Shown: one piece after another, positions 13,862 to 37,226 of the stretch
Layout: each line of letters opens with the position of its first letter
How positions within the stretch are numbered: the stretch's first letter is position 1
IMG/VR virus record: IMGVR_UViG_3300034061_001837
Span: 1 to 37,645 of that record
Strand: one strand, 5' to 3'
Length of the DNA: 37,645 bases
Source of the DNA: a virus
Notes under the pieces: model-generated
Database searches by the model: none
What the model saw: the letters and a program-made list of their open reading frames with translations, nothing else
What the model was told of the DNA's origin: nothing
Made by a program: the position numbers and the translations under genes

Positions 13862-15295
13862 ATGCTAATATTAGGTATTAATGAAACCACTCATGACGCA
13901 TCAGTCTCTTTAATTAAAGACGGCGAGATACTTTTTGCAGGGCATGCAGAAAGATACAGTAAGAAAAAAAATGATTGGTTTACTAACAAGGAACTAATTA
14001 AAGATGCTCTGCAATACGGGTATCCAGATAAAATTGCATACTATGAAAAGCCTTTACTTAAGAAACTTAGAGTAAAGACTAAGGGTGGATTCGGTGGCGA
14101 CAGTCCTTGGTTTGAGTCTACAGAATTAGGGAATCTGCCAAGAAAGAACTTTGGACATCACTATTCTCATGCAGCAGCAGGGTACTATACAAGTTCATTT
14201 AATGATGCCTGTATTGTGGTACTTGATGCAATTGGTGAATTCAATACCTCAACAATATGGGTTGGTGAAGGTGACAAGGTTAAACTTAAATATAAGCAAA
14301 ACTATCCAGTTAGTTTTGGATTATTCTATTCAGCCTTCACTCAATTAATTGGTCTTATGCCAAATCAAGAAGAATATATTATGATGGGTATGGCAGCCTA
14401 TGGTGACTGGAAGAAACATTATCTAAAAGTTAATAAATATTTTGAGTCAACATCACACCAAAAATATAACTTTCACAAGGGTATTCATGATTGGGGAGTT
14501 ATAGAAAATGATCAGGACAGGTTTGACATTGCAGCAGCAGTTCAATATGTTTATGAAAGAAGACTGTTAGAGTTTATGTCGTATGCTAAGTCAATTACTG
14601 GTAAGAACAACTTAGTATTTATGGGTGGTTGTGCCCTTAACTCTTCAGCAAACACATCTCTATGGAATATTTTTGATATGATTTGGATTATGCCTAACCC
14701 AGGAGACGCTGGTAGTTCTTTGGGTGCAGCAGCAGCCTTGTACGGAAAGCACCTTGACTGGAAGACTCCATATCTTGGCTATGATCTTGGAGGAGAGTAT
14801 CCTGTTCAGCAAATTGTGGACGGTATACTAAAAGATGGAATCGTAGCAGTAGCAACAGGAAGAGCAGAGTACGGACCAAGAGCACTAGGAAATAGAAGTA
14901 TCCTTGCAGACCCAAGAGATCCACTAATTAAAGACAAAGTTAATTTAATTAAACAGAGAGAACTCTTTAGACCATTTGCTCCAGTAGTTATGGAAGAGTG
15001 TGCCTCTAAATGGTTTGATATGGACTTTACAAGCCCATATATGCAGTATACGGTCAAGTGCCTTCAGCCTGAGAAGATACCTTCTGTTGTCCATGCAGAT
15101 GGAACATCAAGAGTTCAGACTGTAAATAAAAATCAGCACCGTGGGCTCTGGAGAGCAATCAATAAATTTTATCTTGAAACTGGTGTGCCAGTCTTACTAA
15201 ACACTAGTCTTAATATAAAAGGTCAACCACTTCTTAATGATGAAATTGATATTATTAAGTGGGAAAAGGAATACAATTTCAAGATCTGTAGGTAG
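13862..15295 (+). CDS. NodU/CmcH-family carbamoyltransferase
   Basis: A 477-residue enzyme with the two-domain layout of O-carbamoyltransferases. The N-terminal Kae1-like ATPase part has GINETTHDAS (5-14) and the metal-binding GHHYSHAAAG (98-107), later MGGCALNS and NPGDAGSSLGAA. The C-terminal YrdC-like part has GRAEYGPRALGNRSIL, RPFAPVV and VLLNTSLNIKGQP. Such enzymes move a carbamoyl group from carbamoyl phosphate via carbamoyl-AMP to a hydroxyl on a sugar, nodulation factor or antibiotic. It is somewhat shorter than NodU (about 550-600), ending soon after the NTS motif. A GGAGA site precedes ATG. Surface-sugar or nucleotide decoration is the likely use. Confidence 0.85.
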   Translation: MLILGINETTHDASVSLIKDGEILFAGHAERYSKKKNDWFTNKELIKDALQYGYPDKIAYYEKPLLKKLRVKTKGGFGGDSPWFESTELGNLPRKNFGHHYSHAAAGYYTSSFNDACIVVLDAIGEFNTSTIWVGEGDKVKLKYKQNYPVSFGLFYSAFTQLIGLMPNQEEYIMMGMAAYGDWKKHYLKVNKYFESTSHQKYNFHKGIHDWGVIENDQDRFDIAAAVQYVYERRLLEFMSYAKSITGKNNLVFMGGCALNSSANTSLWNIFDMIWIMPNPGDAGSSLGAAAALYGKHLDWKTPYLGYDLGGEYPVQQIVDGILKDGIVAVATGRAEYGPRALGNRSILADPRDPLIKDKVNLIKQRELFRPFAPVVMEECASKWFDMDFTSPYMQYTVKCLQPEKIPSVVHADGTSRVQTVNKNQHRGLWRAINKFYLETGVPVLLNTSLNIKGQPLLNDEIDIIKWEKEYNFKICR

Positions 15296-16297: not shown

Positions 16298-16912
16298 ATG
16301 ACAACACAGGTGTCTCTAACAAAGCCAACATATTTGGCGGGTGGATCAGTTGCAGTATATGAAAATGCTTGGGAAGATGGATATACAACAATTAATGACA
16401 TCATTAAAATGACAAAAGATATTTCATTAAATGTAAAATTTTTTCCTTCACAGACAAACGCTGATCCTCTGAACACTCGTGAACAATCAATACGAACTAG
16501 CCATAGTCTATCAATAAGTCGATATGCAATTTTTAACAAAAAAATGCAATCTATTAATGATAAATGCTATAGTTTAATTTCTTCAGCAGTTGAGAACTAC
16601 AAAGAAATTTTTAAAATAGAGCAAGAAATAAAGAATACAGAGCCATACACCCTTTTAAGATATTCTGGTGGAGAACAGTACGGCTTTCACTATGATGGTG
16701 GAACGGGCAGCAAAAGAAGTATCTCTGTTTTAATATACTTAAATGATGATTACGAAGGCGGAGAAATTGAGTTTCCAAACTTTAATTTAAAAATTAAACC
16801 AAAGGCAGGAACGCTAATGTTATTCCCATCAAACTATGCATATGGCCACATTGCTCATCCAGTAACTTCTGGAACAAAGTATGTTGTAGTGACATGGCTA
16901 CACGATAGGTAA
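16298..16912 (+). CDS. Prolyl-4-hydroxylase-like 2OG-Fe(II) oxygenase
   Basis: 204 residues with the full set of motifs: H131-x-D133 (FHYDGG), a SVLIYLNDDYEGGEIEF strand block (143-159), IKPKAGTLMLFPS, distal His in GHIAHPV (H187) and a 2OG-binding basic residue K194 (Lys instead of Arg) in TKYVVVTW. This is the compact P4H form that hydroxylates free or peptide proline in known members. The N-terminal 110 residues are variable. Start codon two bases after the upstream stop. Confidence 0.85.
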   Translation: MTTQVSLTKPTYLAGGSVAVYENAWEDGYTTINDIIKMTKDISLNVKFFPSQTNADPLNTREQSIRTSHSLSISRYAIFNKKMQSINDKCYSLISSAVENYKEIFKIEQEIKNTEPYTLLRYSGGEQYGFHYDGGTGSKRSISVLIYLNDDYEGGEIEFPNFNLKIKPKAGTLMLFPSNYAYGHIAHPVTSGTKYVVVTWLHDR

Positions 16913-19637: not shown

Positions 19638-20044
19638 TGTTTGAATATTATGTAAAGAAAGTAACAAAGGTCGTTGATGGAGATACCATTGATGTCGATA
19701 TTGATTTAGGGTTTGACATTTCTTTTAGTTCAAGAGTCAGACTGGCTGGAATTGATACACCTGAGTCTCGTACAGCAGACAAGGCTGAAAAGGCTTTAGG
19801 GCTGGAAGCAAAGGCTTATTTGAAGGCTGCCATTGAGAGTGCTAAGTCTGTAGTTATTAAGACAGAGAAGATGAACTCGTCTGAAAAGTTTGGTCGTATT
19901 CTTGGTTGGGTTTATCTTGATGGAGACACCGTTTCTATTAATGATAAGATGATCAATGATGGACATGCTTGGGGATACATGGGAGAAACAAAGGTCAAAG
20001 ATTTTGACGCTTTGAAGAAGGCCAGAGCAAAGTCTGGAAAGTGA
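19637..20044 (+). CDS. Staphylococcal-nuclease-like thermonuclease
   Basis: Start at ATG 19637 after a GGGGGAG site. The 135-residue protein shows the family's active site at nearly the same numbers as the staphylococcal enzyme: D21, R35, D40 and E43 in VRLAGIDTPES, and R87 in KFGRILGWVYL. No signal peptide, so it would act inside the cell, for example on host DNA or RNA, or be released at lysis. Stop overlaps the next start. Confidence 0.88.
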   Translation: MFEYYVKKVTKVVDGDTIDVDIDLGFDISFSSRVRLAGIDTPESRTADKAEKALGLEAKAYLKAAIESAKSVVIKTEKMNSSEKFGRILGWVYLDGDTVSINDKMINDGHAWGYMGETKVKDFDALKKARAKSGK

Positions 20045-20610
20045 TGACAGATTTTAAAATAAATGTAGTAGAAAATTTTATAACTTTAGAAGATGCCGAC
20101 ACACTTGTAAGTTATATAAAAAATAACTGTTTAGATAAAAACAAATTTTATGTACCCCTAAGACATAGAATTGAGAATAAGGTAAGGTATGAGTCACACA
20201 TACCAGAACGAAACACATTCTCAGATCACTCAGAAGTACTACATTTATTAAAAAAATACTCTGATAAATTTTTACTAGAGTGTAATCTTTTTTTTAAAGA
20301 TAGTGAAGAGATATACCTAGCATCACTTTTTATGCTAATGTTGGGACCAGAAAGCATTCTTACGGAGCATGCAGACAACCATAAGGGGGCAGAGCATTTA
20401 TTTAGAAGCGGGATTATTTATTTAAATGAAGATTTTGATGGAGGATATTTAAATTTTCCACATAGAAATCTTACAATTAAGCCAAAAAGGTTAAGTCTTG
20501 TTATTTTTGAGTCTACAGAGGTACACAAGATCACTGAGGTTTTATCTGGTGTAAGAATGTCAATGCCTATTTGGGCAACGAACATAAAAGAAAAAGAAAT
20601 ATCCTATTAA
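20044..20610 (+). CDS. 2OG-Fe(II) oxygenase, prolyl-hydroxylase-like
   Basis: ATG 20044 overlaps the nuclease stop. 188 residues with H109-x-D111 (TEHADNH), GIIYLNEDFDGGYLNFP, LTIKPKRLSLVIF, distal H161 (EVHKITEV) and R171 (GVRMSMPIW). All iron and 2OG ligands are present. Substrate unknown. Confidence 0.82.
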   Translation: MTDFKINVVENFITLEDADTLVSYIKNNCLDKNKFYVPLRHRIENKVRYESHIPERNTFSDHSEVLHLLKKYSDKFLLECNLFFKDSEEIYLASLFMLMLGPESILTEHADNHKGAEHLFRSGIIYLNEDFDGGYLNFPHRNLTIKPKRLSLVIFESTEVHKITEVLSGVRMSMPIWATNIKEKEISY

Positions 20611-22421: not shown

Positions 22422-22825
22422 TTGAGTTAATTTTTATATGTATCTTGTCTTCTTTAACCTTGCTTTTCTTATCCCTATATGTTCTACAAAAAAGGGCTAA
22501 CAAGGCTCTTATCGCTAAAACTTTAGAGGCTTTGTTGATGCAGCAATTAACCAGTAATATAAACAAAACAGACAAAGATCAGTCTAATGAGGATTTTTTG
22601 AAATTTGTTTCAGATTCTCGTGATTGGGCATACCAATATATAGAAGAGGTTCAAAAAGGATTAGATAATTTTATTACTGATATTGAGCCTGAGATATCCT
22701 ACTTTGATGAATATGGGGTGGTCGGATCAGCCTACCCACACTACCACTCAATGAAGAAAATTTCAGGAGCATATAAAGAATTAAAGAAACTACTGCCAGA
22801 AGATTATGGTAGAATAGATACATGA
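22418..22825 (+). CDS. Membrane-anchored hypothetical protein (135 aa)
   Basis: An N-terminal transmembrane segment (IELIFICILSSLTLLFLSLY, residues 2-21) is followed by a soluble helical domain with a Tyr/His-rich patch (VGSAYPHYHS). Overlaps both neighbours by four bases. Function unknown. Confidence 0.55.
   Translation: MIELIFICILSSLTLLFLSLYVLQKRANKALIAKTLEALLMQQLTSNINKTDKDQSNEDFLKFVSDSRDWAYQYIEEVQKGLDNFITDIEPEISYFDEYGVVGSAYPHYHSMKKISGAYKELKKLLPEDYGRIDT
22810..22821 (+). promoter_or_regulatory. Possible leaderless promoter (TAGAAT)
   Basis: TAGAAT, six bases, then ATG 22822, within the end of the upstream gene. One mismatch to TATAAT, so weaker than the others. Confidence 0.45.
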
Positions 22826-23424
22826 TTAAAAGTCCTTCAGAAAAAGATGAGATATATTTAGCAAATGTTGCAAAAATAGGAAACTCTACAGACAATATAC
22901 AGTATATAGAAAAAGTTTTGTCCGAAGAAGAGCACACAAATCTTCTTAATTACGTAAAAAATGCCAGATCTTGGGAAAAGCAACCATGGGAAGCCATAAC
23001 TATTGAATCAGAAAGTTTGCCTGAAGAAATTCTCACAACACTAAATAAAGTATTTCAACTTGTTTATAAAAAGTCTGTAGAACTTTATAATGTGGATATT
23101 AATCCTTTTCATAAGTCTGCAATACATCTGGTTAAGTTTGTAAAGGGTTTTTCTTTAGATCCTCATGTGGACACCCTTTCGTCTGAGGGTAATCATATTG
23201 CTTCAGTATATTATATTAACGACGACTATACTGGTGGAGAAATCAACTTCCCAGACCATAAGTTACAAATTAAACCAAAACCTAATAGTTTAATAATTTT
23301 CCCTGGAAATGAAAATTATTTGCACGAAGTGCTTGAAATTGTAGACAATGACAGATATAGTTCAGCCATGTGGTTTCAATTTACTGGCTCCAGTTTTAAC
23401 AAAAAAGCAGAATGGTATAATTAA
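22822..23424 (+). CDS. 2OG-Fe(II) oxygenase, P4H-like, tandem copy 1
   Basis: 200 residues with H115-x-D117 (DPHVDTLS), SVYYINDDYTGGEINFPDH, LQIKPKPNSLIIFPG, H168 (YLHEV) and R178 (NDRYSSAMW). All ligands present. The gene directly downstream encodes a clear paralogue with the same N-terminal pattern (LGNS/IGNSxDNI, LSxEEH), showing tandem duplication. Confidence 0.87.
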   Translation: MIKSPSEKDEIYLANVAKIGNSTDNIQYIEKVLSEEEHTNLLNYVKNARSWEKQPWEAITIESESLPEEILTTLNKVFQLVYKKSVELYNVDINPFHKSAIHLVKFVKGFSLDPHVDTLSSEGNHIASVYYINDDYTGGEINFPDHKLQIKPKPNSLIIFPGNENYLHEVLEIVDNDRYSSAMWFQFTGSSFNKKAEWYN

Positions 23425-23427: not shown

Positions 23428-23982
23428 ATGACAAATAAAAACTTAGGAAACTCTGTAGACAATATAAAAATCACAGAAAATGTTTTATCTAAAGAAGAGC
23501 ATAAGCAACTACTTGACTATGCTATTAATATAGATTCTTGGAATGTTCAGCCTTGGGGAGTTCAAACATTTTCACCAGAAAAAATGCCAAAAGAAATTTC
23601 TAAAATTCTGGATAAGGTTTTTATGCTTGCTTATCAAAAATGTATAGACTCCTACAATGTAGAACTTTATTCTTTTGAAAATGAAAGAACGCCTTTAGTT
23701 AAATTTGAAAAAAATTATAAAATGAACGAGCATGCAGATACCGCAGGAGATTTTGCAGTTATATACTATCTTAACGATGATTATGATGGAGGAGAAATAA
23801 ACTTTATGGATCATAACCTAAAGATTAAGCCAAAGTCTAACAGTTTTATTACCTTCCCTAGCAATTCAGACTACTGGCATGAGGTGCTTGAAAATACTTT
23901 AAAAGAAAGGTATTCTGCTACTCAATGGTTTAAGTATGCTGGATCCAGTGTGCAAAGACCAGCACTAGGTTTAGTCAGATGA
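23428..23982 (+). CDS. 2OG-Fe(II) oxygenase, P4H-like, tandem copy 2
   Basis: 184 residues with H102-x-D104 (NEHADTAG), VIYYLNDDYDGGEINF, LKIKPKSNSFITFPS, H151 (YWHEV) and R161 (KERYSATQWF). Paralogue of the preceding gene. It lacks that gene's N-terminal extension and has its own leaderless promoter, so the copies can be expressed separately. Confidence 0.87.
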   Translation: MTNKNLGNSVDNIKITENVLSKEEHKQLLDYAINIDSWNVQPWGVQTFSPEKMPKEISKILDKVFMLAYQKCIDSYNVELYSFENERTPLVKFEKNYKMNEHADTAGDFAVIYYLNDDYDGGEINFMDHNLKIKPKSNSFITFPSNSDYWHEVLENTLKERYSATQWFKYAGSSVQRPALGLVR

Positions 23983-28478: not shown

Positions 28479-28606
28479 TGCCAAAGAAAAAAGCAACAGC
28501 GTTTAATCCTATTCAGATTAAAGATGGATGGATTGTTAGACTGTATAAAGATGGTAGAGTTAAGTCTAAGATAGCACCATACGAACCAAAGAATCCTAAA
28601 AAGTAG
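28478..28606 (+). CDS. Small basic protein (42 aa)
   Basis: TAATG overlap with the upstream gene. Sequence PKKKATAFNPIQIKDGWIVRLYKDGRVKS..., rich in Lys, likely a beta-hairpin. Its last 11 bases overlap the end of the converging minus-strand gene. Coding is supported by coupling and composition. Confidence 0.55.
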   Translation: MPKKKATAFNPIQIKDGWIVRLYKDGRVKSKIAPYEPKNPKK

Positions 28607-29630
28607 AGTACCCCTTAAATAATTCTGCTACGTGGTGTTGAAAATGAATTCCAGGATGTGGTGAGAAATTAAGTATTTTATCATAACTATAAACAACATC
28701 AGAACCTTGTTCCCAAGAAGGATGATCAACAAGTTTAGAATTATGTGATAAATTACAAAAACTAGTTGGAAATTTGCCATCGTCTGTGTGATAGTTATCA
28801 AACTCATCATCAGCAAACTTTATATAATTTTTTAGTTTAAAATTAGGAATTTTAACTAAAACATCCATTAACGCAGAACTTGCATTGTCCCATGTTGACC
28901 AATAAAAGTCTATTCCATGTGAATAACAAAAATTTTGTATTAGTGATATTGATTCAATAGAGTCAGATATCAACTGATGTGGTGAAAAAACATTTTCCAT
29001 GTAAGGTAAACTTTTTTCTTTTGAATTAAAAAAAAGAGAATAATTTTGTTTTTTAAAAAACATTTCTTTTCTAGTACGATTATAAACGATCAAAGGTTTA
29101 AAAGAAATCTGCCGATCCCTTTCTTCTTGTTTCCTTGGATCTATACTTTTGGTGTTATAATAAAAATCTGCATCTGATATTAAACTAGTTCTAAAAAATG
29201 GAGGAAATAGCGCAAAAATAGTTTTTGGTTTATTATATTTTGAAACATATTTAACTATTAATTCAGATGCTTGTCTTATTGTAATACCAGGAACCCCTAA
29301 ATTCAAAACATCTTGGTTTATTTCTGAACTTAAAATACTTGGCCAAGTTCCGCTTTCTGGCACCCCAACACCAAAGGTGTAAGAACATCCTACAGCAATA
29401 ATTTTAGCATCTTTTTTTAAGTTACCACGAAATCCCAACTCATTAATTGTATAATCATTGACTTCGTCGACTTGATTTACAGGACTATAAAATCCTTTAA
29501 GATCAAATGGGTTGTCCTGGTTTGGTAAAAAACAAGAGAGTTGTTGTGTGTCTGTAAAATTATTAAGTATGTAATTACTTTTTTGATAATTTTCATAAAC
29601 ATTTAAAATATTTTTATTCGATAAATCCAT
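28596..29630 (-). CDS. SGNH/GDSL-hydrolase-like protein, paralogue 1
   Basis: 344 residues. After NELGFRGN the first SGNH block reads AVGCSYTFGVG with nucleophile S83, followed by LNLGVPGITI as block II, and the C-terminal block contains FSPHPGIHFQHH with the catalytic His. Known family members are esterases or acyl-sugar (de)acetylases acting on glycans. No signal peptide. Two paralogues lie at 30876 and 33264; this one is the most diverged. It reads leaderless from 29630. Confidence 0.68.
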   Translation of the reverse strand: MDLSNKNILNVYENYQKSNYILNNFTDTQQLSCFLPNQDNPFDLKGFYSPVNQVDEVNDYTINELGFRGNLKKDAKIIAVGCSYTFGVGVPESGTWPSILSSEINQDVLNLGVPGITIRQASELIVKYVSKYNKPKTIFALFPPFFRTSLISDADFYYNTKSIDPRKQEERDRQISFKPLIVYNRTRKEMFFKKQNYSLFFNSKEKSLPYMENVFSPHQLISDSIESISLIQNFCYSHGIDFYWSTWDNASSALMDVLVKIPNFKLKNYIKFADDEFDNYHTDDGKFPTSFCNLSHNSKLVDHPSWEQGSDVVYSYDKILNFSPHPGIHFQHHVAELFKGYSTF

Positions 29631-30373: not shown

Positions 30374-30823
30374 TCAATTCTTATTACCGTCCCAAGTTCC
30401 TATTTTTTTTGTAGGAATGTCGTGGTCTTCCCACAACCTTATCACATTAGGATTATCATCAACAGCATAGGTAACATCCCATAGTTTATTTATATTATCA
30501 AGCATGTCTTTCTTTGCTTCGTAATCTGGTCTATTGTCATCGTCTGCCCTCATAAACAACCCATGAGATCTAATGTTATTCTTAGCAAGCCACATAGACG
30601 TCAGCCCACGATACTTTTCTTTACGAGATGTGACAACCAGGATAGAGTGTCCATCACTAACAGAATTATTTAGCATCTCAACAACCTCTACATTTGGCAG
30701 GGCATCTATAGAAGCCTCATGAAAGGCGTTGTAGTCCCTATTAGAGCCACGAACATAGTGCAGGTATGGATCTACATTGGCTAGGGTTCCATCTACATCA
30801 TATATGTGTGCTGTTGGTTTCAT
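30374..30823 (-). CDS. HAD-family phosphatase (polynucleotide kinase 3'-phosphatase-like)
   Basis: 149 residues. HAD motif I is D9-V-D11-G-T (HIYDVDGTLA), motif II is VVTSRKE, and motif III/IV is in YAVDDNPNVI. The pattern and length match the stand-alone phosphatase domain of phage polynucleotide kinases (PseT type), which removes 3'-phosphates during nucleic acid repair; the kinase half is absent. A general nucleotidase is the alternative. Confidence 0.8.
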   Translation of the reverse strand: MKPTAHIYDVDGTLANVDPYLHYVRGSNRDYNAFHEASIDALPNVEVVEMLNNSVSDGHSILVVTSRKEKYRGLTSMWLAKNNIRSHGLFMRADDDNRPDYEAKKDMLDNINKLWDVTYAVDDNPNVIRLWEDHDIPTKKIGTWDGNKN

Positions 30824-30875: not shown

Positions 30876-31889
30876 TTATTTATCTTTATCATTATATAAA
30901 TTGTAAAAAAAATCTGCAATGTGCTCTTGAATGTGTATCCCTGGGTGAGTATTTTTAAATGTTTTTTCTCCATTTATAAAAGCATAATCAGAACCTATAT
31001 TCCAAGATGGATGATTTTTAAACTCGTGTTCATGGGTATGAGGACTACAAACAGAGTCTACTAGTTCACCAAGGCCCTTATTATAATATAGGCTAGGAGA
31101 GTATAAAGATGTAAAATTTTTTAATTTAAAATTTTCCATTTTGCTTAATTCGTCTAAAATATAAGAACTTGGTGAGTGCCAAGTTGTCCAATATAGTTTT
31201 ATGTTGTTTGATAAACAAAATGATTCTAAAATATAGATAAGGTTTAAGGAATTTAGAATTAATTGATGTGGAGAAGTATAATCTTCTATATATTTTTGAT
31301 TTTCTACTTCCATAAAAAATGATCTATTATCTTTAACTATAGTTGGGTTAGAGTATATATATTCTAGGCTATCTCTTGTTCCCATGTCTCCTCTATTGAC
31401 TTTTGATTTATAAAATTCTTTATCTACTACAACCATACTTCTAAAAAAATCTGGCATTAAACAAAAAATTTCTTTTGGCATTTTGTTGGTCATACAATAT
31501 TGAATAATATTAGTACAAATGCTTTCTACTGAGGCTCCAGGACTGCCCAAGTTTGTGACACTTTTGTTAATTTTTTTTCCTAGTAATTCTGTCCACATTC
31601 CGAATTCTGGAACACCAAGACCAAAGGTTATGGAGCAACCAGATGCAAAGATTTCTGAATCTTCATCAATCTTTCCTCTGCAACCAATAGAATTTGTTTC
31701 ATATGTATTGACTTCATCAATTGTTTCCACAACATTGTCTTTAAAATTACGCTGAGAACTCACAATATCTTTACGAAATGGCTTATGCAGCCCAACCTCT
31801 TTTGTATTTGAAAAAAACTTTTTTAAATACCAACTGTTTTCGTAATTTGATTTATAAAAACTTAAAATATCTCTTGTTAAAAATTTCAT
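30876..31889 (-). CDS. SGNH/GDSL-hydrolase-like protein, paralogue 2
   Basis: 337 residues. Block I is ASGCSITFGLG (nucleophile S86), block II VTNLGSPGASV, and the C-terminal HPGIHIQEHIADFF supplies the catalytic His. Close relative of the protein at 33264, with which it shares a 102-base identical stretch, and more distant from 28596. The N-terminal 70 residues (TRDILSFYKSNY..., SIGCRG) are conserved in all three and look like part of the family rather than a signal peptide. Likely substrate: acyl or acetyl groups on glycans. Confidence 0.68.
   Translation of the reverse strand: MKFLTRDILSFYKSNYENSWYLKKFFSNTKEVGLHKPFRKDIVSSQRNFKDNVVETIDEVNTYETNSIGCRGKIDEDSEIFASGCSITFGLGVPEFGMWTELLGKKINKSVTNLGSPGASVESICTNIIQYCMTNKMPKEIFCLMPDFFRSMVVVDKEFYKSKVNRGDMGTRDSLEYIYSNPTIVKDNRSFFMEVENQKYIEDYTSPHQLILNSLNLIYILESFCLSNNIKLYWTTWHSPSSYILDELSKMENFKLKNFTSLYSPSLYYNKGLGELVDSVCSPHTHEHEFKNHPSWNIGSDYAFINGEKTFKNTHPGIHIQEHIADFFYNLYNDKDK
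31386..31487. repeat. 102-bp perfect repeat, copy 1
   Basis: Identical base for base to 33771-33872. It encodes about 34 identical residues just after block II of the SGNH paralogues. The surrounding sequence is clearly more diverged. Confidence 0.92.
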
Positions 31890-32810: not shown

Positions 32811-33009
32811 TAAGGCACTCGTTTCTTGTGTGGTATAGGCGTATCTTAGTTAAAATTTTGCGGGATGGAGCAAACAACTCTTCCTTACAACATCCACACT
32901 TCATATACCATTCTTTAGAAAAGAAATCATACACAGCACCCTTAGCGTTAGCATACTTCTTGGCGACAAAGGTTTGAAATGGATCGGGTATATCGTAATG
33001 TCTAGGCAT
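32800..33009 (-). CDS. Small Cys-containing protein (69 aa)
   Basis: Start at ATG 33009, with GGAG six bases upstream, rather than the longer frame to 33048. Contains MKCGCCKEELF and a late Cys, possibly a zinc site, and a basic C-terminus. Overlaps both neighbours. Confidence 0.55.
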   Translation of the reverse strand: MPRHYDIPDPFQTFVAKKYANAKGAVYDFFSKEWYMKCGCCKEELFAPSRKILTKIRLYHTRNECLNGY

Positions 33010-33232
33010 CTCGTCTCCAGTGTAGGTAAGATCTAATATAAACAGCACCGTAGGCTACTGCTGCAAAGATAAACCCGTATTGGTCTGTTACTAAAGCATA
33101 GGCTATCCACAAGCACTCATTGAACAATAGTACGAACCATCCCCATAGAGTCTTGCGACCTACAAAGTAAATACCAGATACGCCAATGCAGGCAAGCACC
33201 CAGTGTGCGTAATCAGCAATCCATTGAATCAT
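33002..33232 (-). CDS. Membrane protein (76 aa)
   Basis: The leaderless promoter fixes ATG 33232. Three hydrophobic, aromatic-rich segments (YAHWVLACIGVSGIYFVG, LWGWFVLLFNECLWIAYALV, FIFAAVAYGAVYI) and a basic tail SYLHWRRDA. No family recognised. First gene of a seven-gene overlapping operon of small proteins running to 31933. Confidence 0.6.
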   Translation of the reverse strand: MIQWIADYAHWVLACIGVSGIYFVGRKTLWGWFVLLFNECLWIAYALVTDQYGFIFAAVAYGAVYIRSYLHWRRDA

Positions 33233-33244
33233 ATATTTAGTATA
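33233..33244 (-). promoter_or_regulatory. Leaderless promoter of the micro-protein operon
   Basis: Minus-strand TATACT (33239-33244), six bases, ATG 33232. Confidence 0.65.
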
Positions 33245-33263
33245 TCCTAAACTGAGCAAAAAG

Positions 33264-34268
33264 TCAAACTATTGTATTATTTTGACTATATCGGCTATAA
33301 AAAAAATCTGCCACATGCTGATGAAAATGAATTCCTGGGTGATATTCTTTTGGCGCTTTTTTATAATTTATAACAGAATAGTCAGATCCTTTTGACCAGC
33401 ACAAATGATCCTTAAATTCAGATTCGTGAAATAAATCACAATGTTTCTCTATATTATCTCTAAAACTATCTGATTTGCTAAACATTATAAAAGGTAAAAA
33501 ATTTTTTAATTTGAAGTCTTTTAACTTTACTAATTCTTCCATAATTAAAGAACTCGGCCTATGCCAAGTTGTCCAATATAATTTTATATTATTTGATAAA
33601 CAAAATGATTCTAAGATATAAATATCATCTATAGCATCTAAAATTAATTGGTGTGGGGAAGTCGAGTCTTCTATATATTTTTGATCTTTTATTTGCATAA
33701 AAATATGATTTTCATAATACATAAGGCTAGGACTACAGTAGGTTAGTTCTAAAATCTCAGACTCTTTAAGGTCTCCTCTATTGACTTTTGATTTATAAAA
33801 TTCTTTATCTACTACAACCATACTTCTAAAAAAATCTGGCATTAAACAAAAAATTTCTTTTGGCATTTTGTTATTCATACAATATCGAATAGTATTATGA
33901 CAAATAGTTCGTACGGATGCTCCAGGGTTTCCTAGATTCATAACATTCTTATTGATTTTATCATTTAAAATGTTCGTCCATCTTCCATTTTCTGGAACAC
34001 CAATACCAAAAGTTATAGAGCAACCAGAGGCTAAAAAATCTGCATCTTTATAAACTTCTCCACGAAGACCAATTTCATTGATTTCATATGTGTTGTCCTC
34101 ATCAACTGTAGATATAAAAGCATTTTCGTTTGATTTATTATCAACAACTCCCACCTGATATGAATCATATCGTCCCACATGGCCCGTACCTGTAAAATAT
34201 TTATTTAGGTATCTACTATTTTTGCTGTTATTTTTATAAAAATGTAGAATGTCTTCTGTTAAATACAT
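33264..34268 (-). CDS. SGNH/GDSL-hydrolase-like protein, paralogue 3
   Basis: 334 residues. Block I ASGCSITFGIG (S84), block II VMNLGNPGASV, C-terminal EYHPGIHFHQHVADFF. Nearly the same layout as paralogue 2. It lies 12 bases after the sulfotransferase gene in the same operon, unlike the other paralogues, which have their own promoters. Sulfate and acyl/acetyl changes on the same glycan are a possible joint role. Confidence 0.68.
   Translation of the reverse strand: MYLTEDILHFYKNNSKNSRYLNKYFTGTGHVGRYDSYQVGVVDNKSNENAFISTVDEDNTYEINEIGLRGEVYKDADFLASGCSITFGIGVPENGRWTNILNDKINKNVMNLGNPGASVRTICHNTIRYCMNNKMPKEIFCLMPDFFRSMVVVDKEFYKSKVNRGDLKESEILELTYCSPSLMYYENHIFMQIKDQKYIEDSTSPHQLILDAIDDIYILESFCLSNNIKLYWTTWHRPSSLIMEELVKLKDFKLKNFLPFIMFSKSDSFRDNIEKHCDLFHESEFKDHLCWSKGSDYSVINYKKAPKEYHPGIHFHQHVADFFYSRYSQNNTIV
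33771..33872. repeat. 102-bp perfect repeat, copy 2
   Basis: Identical to 31386-31487, inside SGNH paralogue 3. Confidence 0.92.
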
Positions 34269-34280
34269 CTTAGAACTCTG

Positions 34281-34796
34281 TCACAGATCAATTCTTTTTG
34301 ATAATAGTTTTGTATATGGACCATAACAATCCTCTATATCATTTATATCAAAATGCTTTTCATTATACTTTTGAGAGATTTTGCTTGATCTTAAATATGT
34401 GTTTTCTTTATTGTCTTCTGTTATAGGCACAGGGATGTCTAATGGATCTATATCAAAGTTAAGATCACTGCAAATCCTTGATAATACTTTCTCTGGAAAT
34501 TCTACCAGATCTTCATACTTAATAACAATGTCTGCATTTTTATATAAAAAGTTACACATATCCCGATACTCGTTATTGTATCTTTTGCTATAATCTTCAT
34601 CTGGGTGATAATGCTTTCTCATGGTCACATGAGAGTGAATAGATTCAAAAGGATCTCGTACAACAGTTATAATAAACCTATCAGGCTTCTCTGGAATATG
34701 AAAATATTTTATATCTTTCCTACAGTTATTTAGTAGCAAATTTGACAGGTAGTTTGCCCCAGATCTAGGATATGTAACAATTACTATATTTGACAT
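34281..34796 (-). CDS. Sulfotransferase-family protein
   Basis: 171 residues. The 5'-phosphosulfate loop is TYPRSGANYLSNLL (8-21) and the 3'-phosphate site is VVRDPFESIHSH (45-56), with IVIKYEDLVEFPE further on: the usual order in PAPS-dependent sulfotransferases. It is short, lacking the C-terminal part of most members. It needs PAPS; the APS-kinase-like domain at 18624 could supply it. The acceptor is unknown, perhaps a glycan or hydroxylated protein. Confidence 0.75.
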   Translation of the reverse strand: MSNIVIVTYPRSGANYLSNLLLNNCRKDIKYFHIPEKPDRFIITVVRDPFESIHSHVTMRKHYHPDEDYSKRYNNEYRDMCNFLYKNADIVIKYEDLVEFPEKVLSRICSDLNFDIDPLDIPVPITEDNKENTYLRSSKISQKYNEKHFDINDIEDCYGPYTKLLSKRIDL

Positions 34797-34938: not shown

Positions 34939-36366
34939 TTAAACAAAATCAAACCATATTGGCATAATGTATCTTGAGCCATTTGCTGGGCCAACATGGT
35001 ACCAATAATGAGGATTCCCAGGGAATAGAATTAGATCACCAGCCTTTGGCTTAAGGGATAGTCCTTGATTAAAAAATGACAAACCACCACCATCGTAGTC
35101 ATCATTCAAATAAACCCATCCTGCTAAATGGTTTGAGTCTTTATGACCCATATCATCTATTGGAATAGTTTGACTATTATTATGAACCCATTGAGCAAAA
35201 CGAGAATTTCTTGGTTTTAGTTTTACATTAAATTCTTTTTCTACGATAGACTGAATACCAGGGATATATCTTTCTGAATACCTGAGTGAATCGTAATATA
35301 ATAAAGACAGTGTAGGATTTCCAGAATCGTCTGGTTGCAAGGGACGATTATTACTTGTCTCTGTATTATTTATAAGTCCTATAATATGGTCACATTCTTC
35401 TTTGCTTAAATAATTATTAAATACTTTTACATTTCTAGGATCACTTCCGATATTATTAAAGTTTTGTACCGTTAGGTCAGAGTAACCTATTACATTTCCT
35501 TCAGGCACTACAATATCATTAAAGTTTTTTACCATATCTAGCAACTTGCTAATATCTTCTTGATCAGTATGAATCATAAAGTCATAAATGCCAAACTTCT
35601 CAGACAGGTTTCTTATTTGTGCAACAACATCGACTAACTTTCCTTTTATTAAGTGGTTTTGTTGTCTAACTGGTGCATTCTTGTCATACTTAACATGCTT
35701 TTCATCGTCTGGATGGGTAGTAATAAGTGGGTCAATAATGACTATTGGCTTTACCTTATCCAGATCAATCTTTTTAAACTGGTCCTTAAACAATAGGTTG
35801 TCATCAACATATATATATTCGCAATGTTTGTTTGCTATACCAATTGTTGTATCTGAAGAGCCAACAACTGCCATGTGGGTTTTGTGCTCATGGGCACTCA
35901 TTAAATTCATAAATTTGTCCATCCAAACTGCAGAGATGGCAACCCTTTTTGCAAGAGTGTCAATAAGTGAAGGGTCGTGCATATAGTGGTCTATAACTAT
36001 CTTCTCAGACTTGTCGTTTCCTTCATCACCCCATCTTCCAGAAACTAGGTTTACGCCAATTCTTCCAGGTGCAAACTTATTTAACGTGTCAACAATCTTA
36101 GCAGCATAGTCAGGACTTGTTCCATATGCTGGCAGGGCAATTGTCATAATCAGTTGATTTGTTTTTTGTAATGCTTCTTGTATAACTAATGAAAAATCAA
36201 TACCTCCTGGGCCATAGGGAAGTAAAACAGATTTAACGTTAGCACCATCTAGTTCTTGTGCCATAGAAAGAATTCCCTTAAGGTCTAGGTTCTCAATGCT
36301 ATCGTTTATCTGCCAGTGTCTTCTCCACATCCAGTGAAATGTTATAGGCTTATTGGTATTATCCAT
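34939..36366 (-). CDS. Luciferase-like flavin monooxygenase fused to a 2OG-Fe(II) oxygenase
   Basis: 475 residues in two unrelated oxygenase domains. Residues 1 to about 310 follow the TIM-barrel luciferase-like family near alkanesulfonate monooxygenase SsuD: FHWMWRRHW, a KSVLLPYGPGGIDFS strand-loop, LIMTIALPAYGTSPDYAAKI, and FAPGRIGVNLVSGRWGDEGN. Residues about 320-475 are a prolyl-hydroxylase-like domain with H408-x-D410 (GHKDSN), GWVYLNDDYDGGGLSFF, LKPKAGDLILFPG, H457 and R465. The frame is uninterrupted. Start overlaps the upstream small gene. The first domain would need reduced flavin, the second iron, 2OG and oxygen; two successive oxidations of one substrate is the simplest reading. 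Confidence 0.82.
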   Translation of the reverse strand: MDNTNKPITFHWMWRRHWQINDSIENLDLKGILSMAQELDGANVKSVLLPYGPGGIDFSLVIQEALQKTNQLIMTIALPAYGTSPDYAAKIVDTLNKFAPGRIGVNLVSGRWGDEGNDKSEKIVIDHYMHDPSLIDTLAKRVAISAVWMDKFMNLMSAHEHKTHMAVVGSSDTTIGIANKHCEYIYVDDNLLFKDQFKKIDLDKVKPIVIIDPLITTHPDDEKHVKYDKNAPVRQQNHLIKGKLVDVVAQIRNLSEKFGIYDFMIHTDQEDISKLLDMVKNFNDIVVPEGNVIGYSDLTVQNFNNIGSDPRNVKVFNNYLSKEECDHIIGLINNTETSNNRPLQPDDSGNPTLSLLYYDSLRYSERYIPGIQSIVEKEFNVKLKPRNSRFAQWVHNNSQTIPIDDMGHKDSNHLAGWVYLNDDYDGGGLSFFNQGLSLKPKAGDLILFPGNPHYWYHVGPANGSRYIMPIWFDFV

Positions 36367-36610
36367 TTTTTATTACTCTTCCCTTTGTTTTAAACCAAGA
36401 ACCTATCTTAGCCTTTGCAACTTTGCTTCTTAAAAGTTCTCCAAATGTTTCATGAGATACGTCTGATCCAAGATATTCTTGTCCTGTTTCAAGGTCAATC
36501 AACTTCCACTTACCTGGTGCTTTTGTATGCAAAATTAAATCAATTGGATAATCGTAATCATTGACCTCAGAACCATCTAGAAGTTTTCTTTTTTTCATGT
36601 CATCTGTCAT
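36359..36610 (-). CDS. Hypothetical protein (83 aa)
   Basis: Lies between two oxygenase genes: it starts one base after the first's stop and overlaps the fusion gene by eight bases. Basic at both ends, with a beta-rich middle (GKWKLIDLETGQEYLGSD). No family recognised. Conserved coupling would suggest a partner of the oxygenases. Confidence 0.58.
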   Translation of the reverse strand: MTDDMKKRKLLDGSEVNDYDYPIDLILHTKAPGKWKLIDLETGQEYLGSDVSHETFGELLRSKVAKAKIGSWFKTKGRVIKNG

Positions 36611-36611
36611 T

Positions 36612-37226
36612 TTAAACTACCGTAAACCAAATAGGCAGAGTGTATCTATCACCAGATAAAACCTCTTTAACTTCATGAGCGTAGTGCATATTCCCAGGGA
36701 ATACGACTAAGTCACCAGTCTTTGGCTTAATACAAACATCATGTGTTTCAAACTTAATCTCTCCACCCTCATAGTTATCATTTAAATAAATAATAATTGG
36801 TAAGTGGTTTTCTGTTACATATCCAAGGTCATCCACATGTGTGTTTAAGTAAGATCCAGTCTCCCAGTGAACAACGCCCAAGAATTCTTCTTTTTCTGCT
36901 ATCTCAATATCTTCTAAGTTGTATGCTTTTTTTATTTCATCTTTAACTCTGCCTATAAGATTGGACTTATCTGGCAGACCATCATACTTACGCATGTAGG
37001 TTAATGGCTCTCCATTAGGACCTTTTTGAGAAACAAAACGGTGAGAGTGTCTATCTTCTAGACCATCCATAAGATAAGATATTTCTTCTTGTGTTAAAAA
37101 ATTAGGAATAGTTATAATGTTTTCTGCAGAGTTTCCTAATTTATTTAAAAATTTGTGATATGACTCAGTTCTTTCGATTGAGTCAGGATTATTTCCTACT
37201 GGCTTGTTGTTGATGGCATATGACAT
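36612..37226 (-). CDS. 2OG-Fe(II) oxygenase, prolyl-hydroxylase-like
   Basis: 204 residues with H130-x-D132 (NTHVDDLG), IIIYLNDNYEGGEIKF, IKPKTGDLVVFPGNMHY, H184 (AHEV) and R194 (GDRYTLPIWF). It is the first gene of the operon with the flavin/2OG fusion and resembles the fusion's C-terminal half (same PGN-HY and R-Y-x-x-P-I-W-F ends). Leaderless start at 37226. Confidence 0.87.
   Translation of the reverse strand: MSYAINNKPVGNNPDSIERTESYHKFLNKLGNSAENIITIPNFLTQEEISYLMDGLEDRHSHRFVSQKGPNGEPLTYMRKYDGLPDKSNLIGRVKDEIKKAYNLEDIEIAEKEEFLGVVHWETGSYLNTHVDDLGYVTENHLPIIIYLNDNYEGGEIKFETHDVCIKPKTGDLVVFPGNMHYAHEVKEVLSGDRYTLPIWFTVV

Follow-up and report, generated by a model that had tools for sequence, protein, structure and literature searches.

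A conserved fusion carried by phages

Can one phage protein unite two oxygenase chemistries? The question is raised by a single 475-codon frame in a virus record of 37,645 bases, which was analysed over its whole length (hereafter, the window). The initial annotation had read this frame as an SsuD-like flavin monooxygenase joined to a prolyl-hydroxylase-like 2OG-Fe(II) oxygenase, and had suggested either two oxidations of one substrate or sulfur scavenging coupled to hydroxylation. The frame lies on the minus strand, starts with ATG and is uninterrupted, as had been described (Table 1). A scan of IMG/VR yielded 133 relatives, of which the best 80 loci were retained for comparison. All 80 contain the full frame, with lengths of 464-480 aa, and three contigs with other metagenome numbers (L001, L002, and L041) carry a fusion 100% identical to that of the window. 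An assembly join or a frameshift is ruled out by these identical contigs and by the complete frame in every retained locus, and hence the fusion is real and conserved. The same domain order was found in the 80 retained relatives and in a second clade (n=17 contigs). Separate halves do occur among the relatives, as adjacent genes in 11 contigs, but most relatives are fused.

Close relatives were found in viral contigs only. When 84,980 genomes of bacteria and archaea were scanned twice with the same two peptide patterns (40 matches each), a search sensitive to close relatives only, no relative emerged. Among 50,697 records of named phages 83 match, none of them over 80% of the query, and all of the 40 matches listed (of 83) cover the C-terminal half only. 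With the LLM half we obtained four Acinetobacter phage records annotated as ssuD (E 0.01-0.7) and weak matches in 21 plasmid records (E 0.002-0.009). No description of an enzyme with this fusion was found in the open-access literature under phage and viral-metabolism terms, in agreement with the initial annotation; both folds are already known, as are DSBH domains free of a metal site. The fusion gene is carried by some bacteriophages from aquatic samples. The large terminase of the window, a phrog_2 match, is ~55% identical over its full length to those of Streptomyces phages such as Kenrey, Coruscant, and Yaboi, and from this likeness the window phage probably infects an actinobacterium.

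Table 1. Features of the fusion gene and its neighbours in the window.
Feature	Coordinates	Strand	Basis
Fusion CDS, 475 aa: LLM barrel and probably non-catalytic 2OG-fold domain	34939..36366	-	ORF; relatives; AF2 model (pLDDT 78.6, pTM 0.62)
LLM domain, residues 1-287; eight barrel strands; SsuD lid and insertion segments missing	35506..36366	-	SsuD/MsuD similarity; fold; residue alignment
Linker, residues 288-301; close to the stop codon and new start (ATG) of split relatives	35464..35505	-	Split contigs
Pseudo-2OG domain, residues 302-475; predicted prolyl-hydroxylase DSBH fold without iron triad	34942..35463	-	Alignments; model
Residues 402-404, P-I-D, at the H-x-D place	35155..35163	-	Alignments
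Y456, at the place of the distal iron-binding His	34999..35001	-	Alignments
R465, at the place of the 2OG-site Arg of intact siblings; invariant	34972..34974	-	80/80 rows
Small protein, 83 aa; overlaps the start of the fusion gene	36359..36610	-	80/80 loci; phrog_4098 tail
Intact P4H-like 2OG oxygenase, 204 aa	36612..37226	-	H130, D132, H184, R194 in 81/81
Sulfotransferase-like gene; often, not always, beside the cassette	34281..34796	-	Pfam; neighbourhoods
Possibly SGNH/GDSL-like gene; no Pfam match itself	33264..34268	-	Two paralogs match GDSL model below cut-off

The N-terminal half is a remote member of the LLM superfamily

Profiles place the N-terminal half at the margin of known families. 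Pfam PF00296 scores 12.6 bits against a cut-off of 27.9 (E 0.086), and two SsuD models of NCBIfam match at E 7e-7 and 9e-7, both far below their curated cut-offs (28.2 and 29.5 bits with TIGR03565, whose cut-off of 518.2 was not reached). A family profile, in turn, picks out MsuD and SsuD among PDB entries (E 2e-5). The AlphaFold2 model of the fusion was built from 44 sequences and has all eight barrel strands. Residues 4-287 match LLM enzymes with VIA Z values of ~20-22: CmoJ (6ask) 21.7, LadA (3b9n) 21.1, SfnG (8t0u) 20.9, MsuD 20.6, the F420-dependent KvPepI 20.6, and SsuD (1m41) 20.5, where rows within 1 Z were treated as ties. For CmoJ, LadA, SfnG, and SsuD the rmsd is 3.3-3.7 over 249-266 residues. 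By fold and profile only, the N-terminal half is a remote LLM superfamily member. Its nearest sequence relatives are SsuD and MsuD, group C two-component flavin monooxygenases that also rank with the best fold matches, and we describe it from these similarities as a compact LLM TIM barrel nearest to them. To this extent the SsuD-like barrel of the initial annotation stands, but the canonical sulfonate motif is not kept (see below). Two phage proteins annotated as 'luciferase-like domain' (BFVD A0A6J7WN64 and A0A6J7WQ01) are LLM barrels too, of 249 and 251 aa; they are stand-alone, with no fused domain, and in the structural match their identity is just 19% and 16%.

For residue comparisons we aligned four bacterial SsuD/MsuD proteins from plasmids with nine family members using MAFFT. 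The plasmid proteins took the place of P. fluorescens MsuD, and MsuD numbering was transferred by motif; the oxygen-pocket, phosphate-site, and flavin-site residues are those published for MsuD in the excerpted text of PMC8234197. Two MAFFT modes are concordant to about residue 215 and divergent beyond, and the residue claims on the LLM half rest on MAFFT; hhalign misaligned the second half of the domain and was not used for them. The oxygen pocket is kept (MsuD L46, A75, N104, and V106 are L48, A77, N106, and V108 here) and the phosphate site partly so (MsuD H123, R126, S177, and S178 are H127, R141, S170, and S171). MsuD G108 has a counterpart, and G109 corresponds to a Gly following a two-residue insertion. 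Shared with SsuD/MsuD are the TIM barrel and, as aligned, the L, A, and NxV of the oxygen pocket and the H, R, and SS of the phosphate site. The phage LLM half differs from them in having no canonical sulfonate motif, lid or insertion segments, in being phage-encoded, and in the pseudo-2OG domain that comes after it, either in the same chain or as the next gene. The flavin-site residues T49, R77, and Y127 are not kept either: their places are Y51, P79, and V142, so that flavin binding is not assured.

The alignment and the fold suggest that the LLM half may be a flavin or an F420 enzyme, and because the Z values tie, FMN and F420 are not separable by fold alone. We hold it possible, if somewhat doubtful, that it is an F420H2-dependent oxidoreductase and not an FMNH2 monooxygenase. 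KvPepI, at 20.6, ties with the FMN enzymes at ~20-22 and shares the compact build of the barrel (TMt up to 0.72), and the probable host, judged by the terminase, is actinobacterial. Many actinobacteria make F420. A search for flavin reductases of family PF01613 in the window and in four relatives of 98-119 kb came up empty (0/5), a finding that also makes it probable that the reduced cofactor is supplied by the host. There is a viral precedent as well, since an F420-dependent LLM is listed among the putative viral genes on contigs from viruses of ammonia-oxidising archaea (excerpt of PMC11849493). Nevertheless, the sequence is nearest to the FMN-dependent SsuD and MsuD, the Ser pair of the phosphate site and the NxV of the oxygen pocket are kept, and a host reductase could provide FMNH2.

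The C-terminal half probably lacks a normal iron site

The C-terminal half matches Pfam 2OG-FeII_Oxy_3 with 27.6 bits (cut-off 27), starting at residue 408, beyond the HxD place, and its PHROG matches are the P4H-like phage families phrog_2297 and phrog_61. Modelled alone from 57 sequences (pLDDT 92.3, pTM 0.88), it gave fold matches over its whole length to P3H1 (Z 15.5; rmsd 2.2 over 151), viral vCPH (15.2), and PHD2 (14.9). In this predicted model the half is a double-stranded beta-helix of the prolyl-hydroxylase type. Like the P4H-like Fe(II)/2OG oxygenases it is a DSBH throughout and has an invariant Arg (Arg465); unlike them, it has an incomplete facial triad in every aligned row. Structure prediction thus recovered both folds that the initial annotation had proposed to be joined in frame, but the iron triad of the second active site is absent in 80/80 rows.

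The five sibling 2OG genes of the window served to locate the iron site. In the alignment, P402-I403-D404 takes the place of their H-x-D and Y456 that of their distal His, and in the HxD region the alignment between the C-terminal half and the neighbouring intact gene is free of gaps. In the AF2 model, residues 401-403 form a short strand, which we take to be the usual seat of the HxD motif in the DSBH fold, and residues 407-410 belong to a segment with pLDDT < 50. Conservation was counted over 81 sequences (80 clade-1 loci and the window, near-identical contigs kept). Position 402 is P in 65, S in 9, A in 4, and R in 3 of them and is never His (0/81); position 456 is Y in 78 and H in 3. The initial annotation had taken H408, D410, H457, and R465 for kept active-site residues. 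The letters are there, and D410 and R465 are invariant in 81/81, but position 408 is variable (H57/S16/R8), as is position 457 (H51/N16/D8/S6), and neither is a ligand position. H408/D410/H457 was rejected as an iron site on account of this variability, its misalignment with the ligands of the five siblings, and the low pLDDT at 407-410.

We extended the comparison to an alignment of 80 rows that covers both clades and the split forms. It holds the distinct C-termini (79) with the window added as a row, and omits three loci cut by a contig end as well as loci whose LLM match ends before query residue 270 (for example, L240 and L278). The H-x-D...H triad is found in none of the 80 rows. Of these, the combinations at 402/404/456 are P-D-Y (47), S-D-Y (9), R-D-Y (5), A-D-Y (4), P-N-Y (4), and P-N-H (2) in clade 1 and the split forms, and H-N-H (7), Q-D-H (1), and L-D-H (1) in clade 2. 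Arg465, by contrast with the triad, is present in 80/80 rows and aligns with the Arg of the intact neighbour, whose basic side chain serves the 2OG carboxylate. That the triad is lost is read here from the alignment and the predicted model, the fold search giving no residue-level superposition. The C-terminal half probably has no normal iron site, and for that reason it probably does no 2OG oxygenase chemistry.

A second clade, split versions, and selection

A divergent fusion (L391) was reached via the small protein encoded upstream, and led to 17 contigs 79-100% identical to it (contig numbers for this clade and for the split versions are hand counts from match listings). This clade 2 is ~60% identical to the clade of the window, and is fused in 17/17 contigs, with 483-492 aa. 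Its site reads H-x-N in 15/17, L-x-D in 1, and Q-x-D in 1; the distal His is present in all 14 (of 17) in which that segment was inspected. Both His are found in 7/9 aligned rows, with Asn replacing Asp, and so the two clades miss different iron ligands.

In 11 contigs the protein is split: the LLM gene (283-286 aa) ends in a stop codon and the pseudo-2OG gene has its ATG at the same junction. In a twelfth candidate the LLM gene is cut by the contig end. The split pseudo-2OG genes have P or S at position 402 in all ten examined, the first His being absent. In our trees, split forms fall in more than one place among the fused forms, and the best trees need two or three fused/split changes (bootstrap 2-2 and 2-4), of which the well-supported branches alone force only one. 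Because the two halves are adjacent where they are separate and are fused elsewhere, the gene-fusion principle suggests that they act together; the split LLM and pseudo-2OG proteins can presumably act in trans.

Within the fusion, median dN/dS was 0.069 (LLM half) and 0.101 (pseudo-2OG half); the small protein gave 0.074 and the intact 2OG gene 0.135 (Nei-Gojobori; 150 random related pairs each, clade 1 only; pairs 86-97% identical in the fusion, 80-97% in the small protein and the intact 2OG gene). Given these low values, both halves of the fusion are maintained and the pseudo-domain is not decaying. The low dN/dS in the clade tested, together with an iron site that is incomplete in two clades through different ligands, argues that the non-catalytic state is what is kept in the C-terminal half.

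Two readings would nonetheless give this half a catalytic metal. The first, that it binds a metal through other residues (for example, D404, D410 or H413) as an unusual metalloenzyme, appears unlikely to us: invariance of K409, D410, N412, and H413 in 81/81 clade-1 sequences goes beyond the needs of a mere scaffold, but in clade 2 Asn stands in for both K409 and H413, only D410 and N412 of the four being kept, and H453 is His in 68/81. The second is the bifunctional enzyme of the initial annotation, in which one protein would oxidise a substrate with flavin and hydroxylate it with 2OG/Fe(II). Despite the presence of both folds, of Asp404 in 73/81 and Arg465 in all 81 sequences, and of both His in most clade 2 rows, we give this little credence: the full triad is missing from all 80 rows, the clades lack different ligands, and H408 (57/81) and H457 (51/81) vary and are out of register with the ligands of the five siblings.

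Two irregular loci were also seen. The fusion of L123 (1696-3156) is a possible recombinant: its LLM half shares 87% identity with a clade-1 LLM (L245), and its C-terminal half is of the clade-2 type (Q-x-D...H). In L240 (3236-4605; same contig as L278) the LLM frame is interrupted at about codon 195 and the remainder lies in a different frame, through either a sequencing error or a real loss.

A small protein and an intact 2OG oxygenase accompany the fusion

The gene directly upstream of the fusion encodes a small protein (a family of ~85 aa) in 108/108 loci, two of them cut by contig ends: 80/80 in clade 1, 11/11 among the split forms (one partial), and 17/17 in clade 2 (one cut by a contig end). 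This protein is similar to the C-terminal ~45 residues of phrog_4098 (E 4.4e-8) and is 53% identical over 43 aa to the tail of a phage Ac42 protein, an NTP-transferase protein of T4-like phages. From its length and position, phrog_4098 would be the family of the ORF53_52c type; the RB69 homolog, ORF53_52c, is discussed in the excerpted text of PMC6024577 as a gene that might provide the sugar donor in DNA arabinosylation. What is a ~45-residue C-terminal tail in the Ac42 homolog is a free-standing gene in the cassette. The small protein is seen apart from the LLM gene as well: 24 of 35 newly fetched loci (of 80) have no LLM gene within ~3 kb. In another set of loci, an LLM gene was present in 78 of 79 newly fetched loci (of 80), the exception (L202) ending right after the small protein. 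In six of the 24 loci (L364-L367, L383, and L384), the small protein is directly preceded by a different 2OG-like gene, of 256 aa.

The separate P4H-like gene noticed by the initial annotation lies further upstream on the same strand, and no other paralog in the window scores as well against the fused domain (E 8.8e-27; the runner-up, 3.9e-17). Its H130, D132, H184, and R194 are kept in the 80 loci and the window alike. An intact 2OG oxygenase motif was found upstream of the fusion or its split halves in 103/108 loci (clade 1 80/80, split 9/11, clade 2 14/17); of the five others, four are near a contig end and one (L400) has a homolog that the search motif did not match. The intact gene is not always adjacent, as in L391, where a sulfotransferase-like gene lies between. 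By sequence, the fused domain and this neighbour look like an enzyme/pseudoenzyme pair. Downstream, the sulfotransferase-like and the possible SGNH-like genes follow the cassette often, though not always.

Several other genes of the window were noted. A short PnuC-like protein (33005-33259; PF04973 E 3e-4, below cut-off; phrog_2421 E 4e-22) is found near the cassette in many relatives, and a protein with a PNKP-type phosphatase domain (30374-30823; PF25109 E 1.2e-19) is downstream of it in some. Three similar genes (28596-29630, 30876-31889, and 33264-34268) encode proteins of 334-344 aa, two of which match a GDSL lipase model below cut-off.

A proposed multi-protein oxidation system

The gene set points to a multi-protein oxidation system and not to one enzyme with two working active sites. 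The reading we lean towards, with some confidence, is that of a compact LLM enzyme bearing a non-catalytic 2OG-fold domain for docking or substrate binding, which works with the intact 2OG oxygenase. The phage-encoded LLM half would carry the chemistry of the fusion, with flavin or F420 as a cofactor that probably comes in its reduced form from the host. The pseudo-2OG half would be a docking or substrate-recognition module. Through it the LLM enzyme would be tied to the small protein and the intact 2OG oxygenase, its likely partners, or else to a substrate common to them. A substrate would then be oxidised by two proteins, not twice by one.

A recognition or docking role of this kind has been proposed for OGFOD1/Tpa1p, in which two DSBH domains stand in tandem and the metal-free C-terminal one is suggested to bind partners or substrate (excerpt of PMC4396695); by analogy, we infer it for the pseudo-2OG half. 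The likeness lies in a non-catalytic DSBH retained beside a catalytic domain. OGFOD1/Tpa1p, however, combines a catalytic and a non-catalytic DSBH in one chain, its partner domain being a 2OG oxygenase, whereas the fusion pairs its DSBH with an LLM barrel and the intact 2OG oxygenase has a gene of its own.

A more elaborate version, which we put forward tentatively and would not bet on, is a phage modification machine of a new kind. In it the LLM enzyme, with flavin or F420, would be docked via a repeatedly inactivated 2OG paralog onto the intact 2OG oxygenase, along with the small protein as a carrier or recognition factor related to an NTP-transferase tail of phages. The two oxygenase chemistries would then modify a single phage or host macromolecule one after the other. 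In either form, the simpler docking model or this one, two oxygenase classes would be coupled through an enzyme/pseudoenzyme pair, and the natural fused and split versions make such coupling directly testable. If the partner model is true, the cassette would encode a phage oxidation pathway.

Candidate substrates

Candidate substrates under the docking model would be a phage or host protein, a glycan or a nucleotide. The initial annotation had offered a sulfur-scavenging step as one option. The sulfonate motif of MsuD consists of W195, R225, and R296 in the RGGA loop (excerpt of PMC8234197). In our MAFFT alignment the W195 place is a variable F/V/Q/Y position in the fusion family, the R225 place is an invariant Lys (K206), and the R296/RGGA loop is deleted in both modes, with an invariant R234 near the place of the missing loop. 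As aligned, the LLM half is without a canonical alkanesulfonate site, and sulfonate chemistry was dropped as the default reading. An alkanesulfonate monooxygenase that scavenges sulfur during infection is accordingly very improbable, for although SsuD is the closest curated family (E 9e-7) and K206 and R234 are invariant at or near the places of two motif residues, the match reaches 28 bits against a cut-off of 518 and the Trp and the RGGA loop are not kept.

We looked as well for a T4-like route to DNA hypermodification. No gene of PF00303, which we take to be the family including dCMP hydroxymethylase, was found in the window or the four large relatives (0/5; all five records may be fragments), and this weakens the idea of such a route. 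Apart from the fusion, five 2OG genes stand within the 37.6 kb (16298-16912, 20041-20610, 22822-23424, 23428-23982, and 36612-37226), all with the HxD...H triad in the alignment. A NodU/Nol-like carbamoyltransferase gene (13862-15295; PF16861 E 5.5e-51, PF02543 E 1.5e-36) has an 81% identical homolog in a relative of 119 kb.
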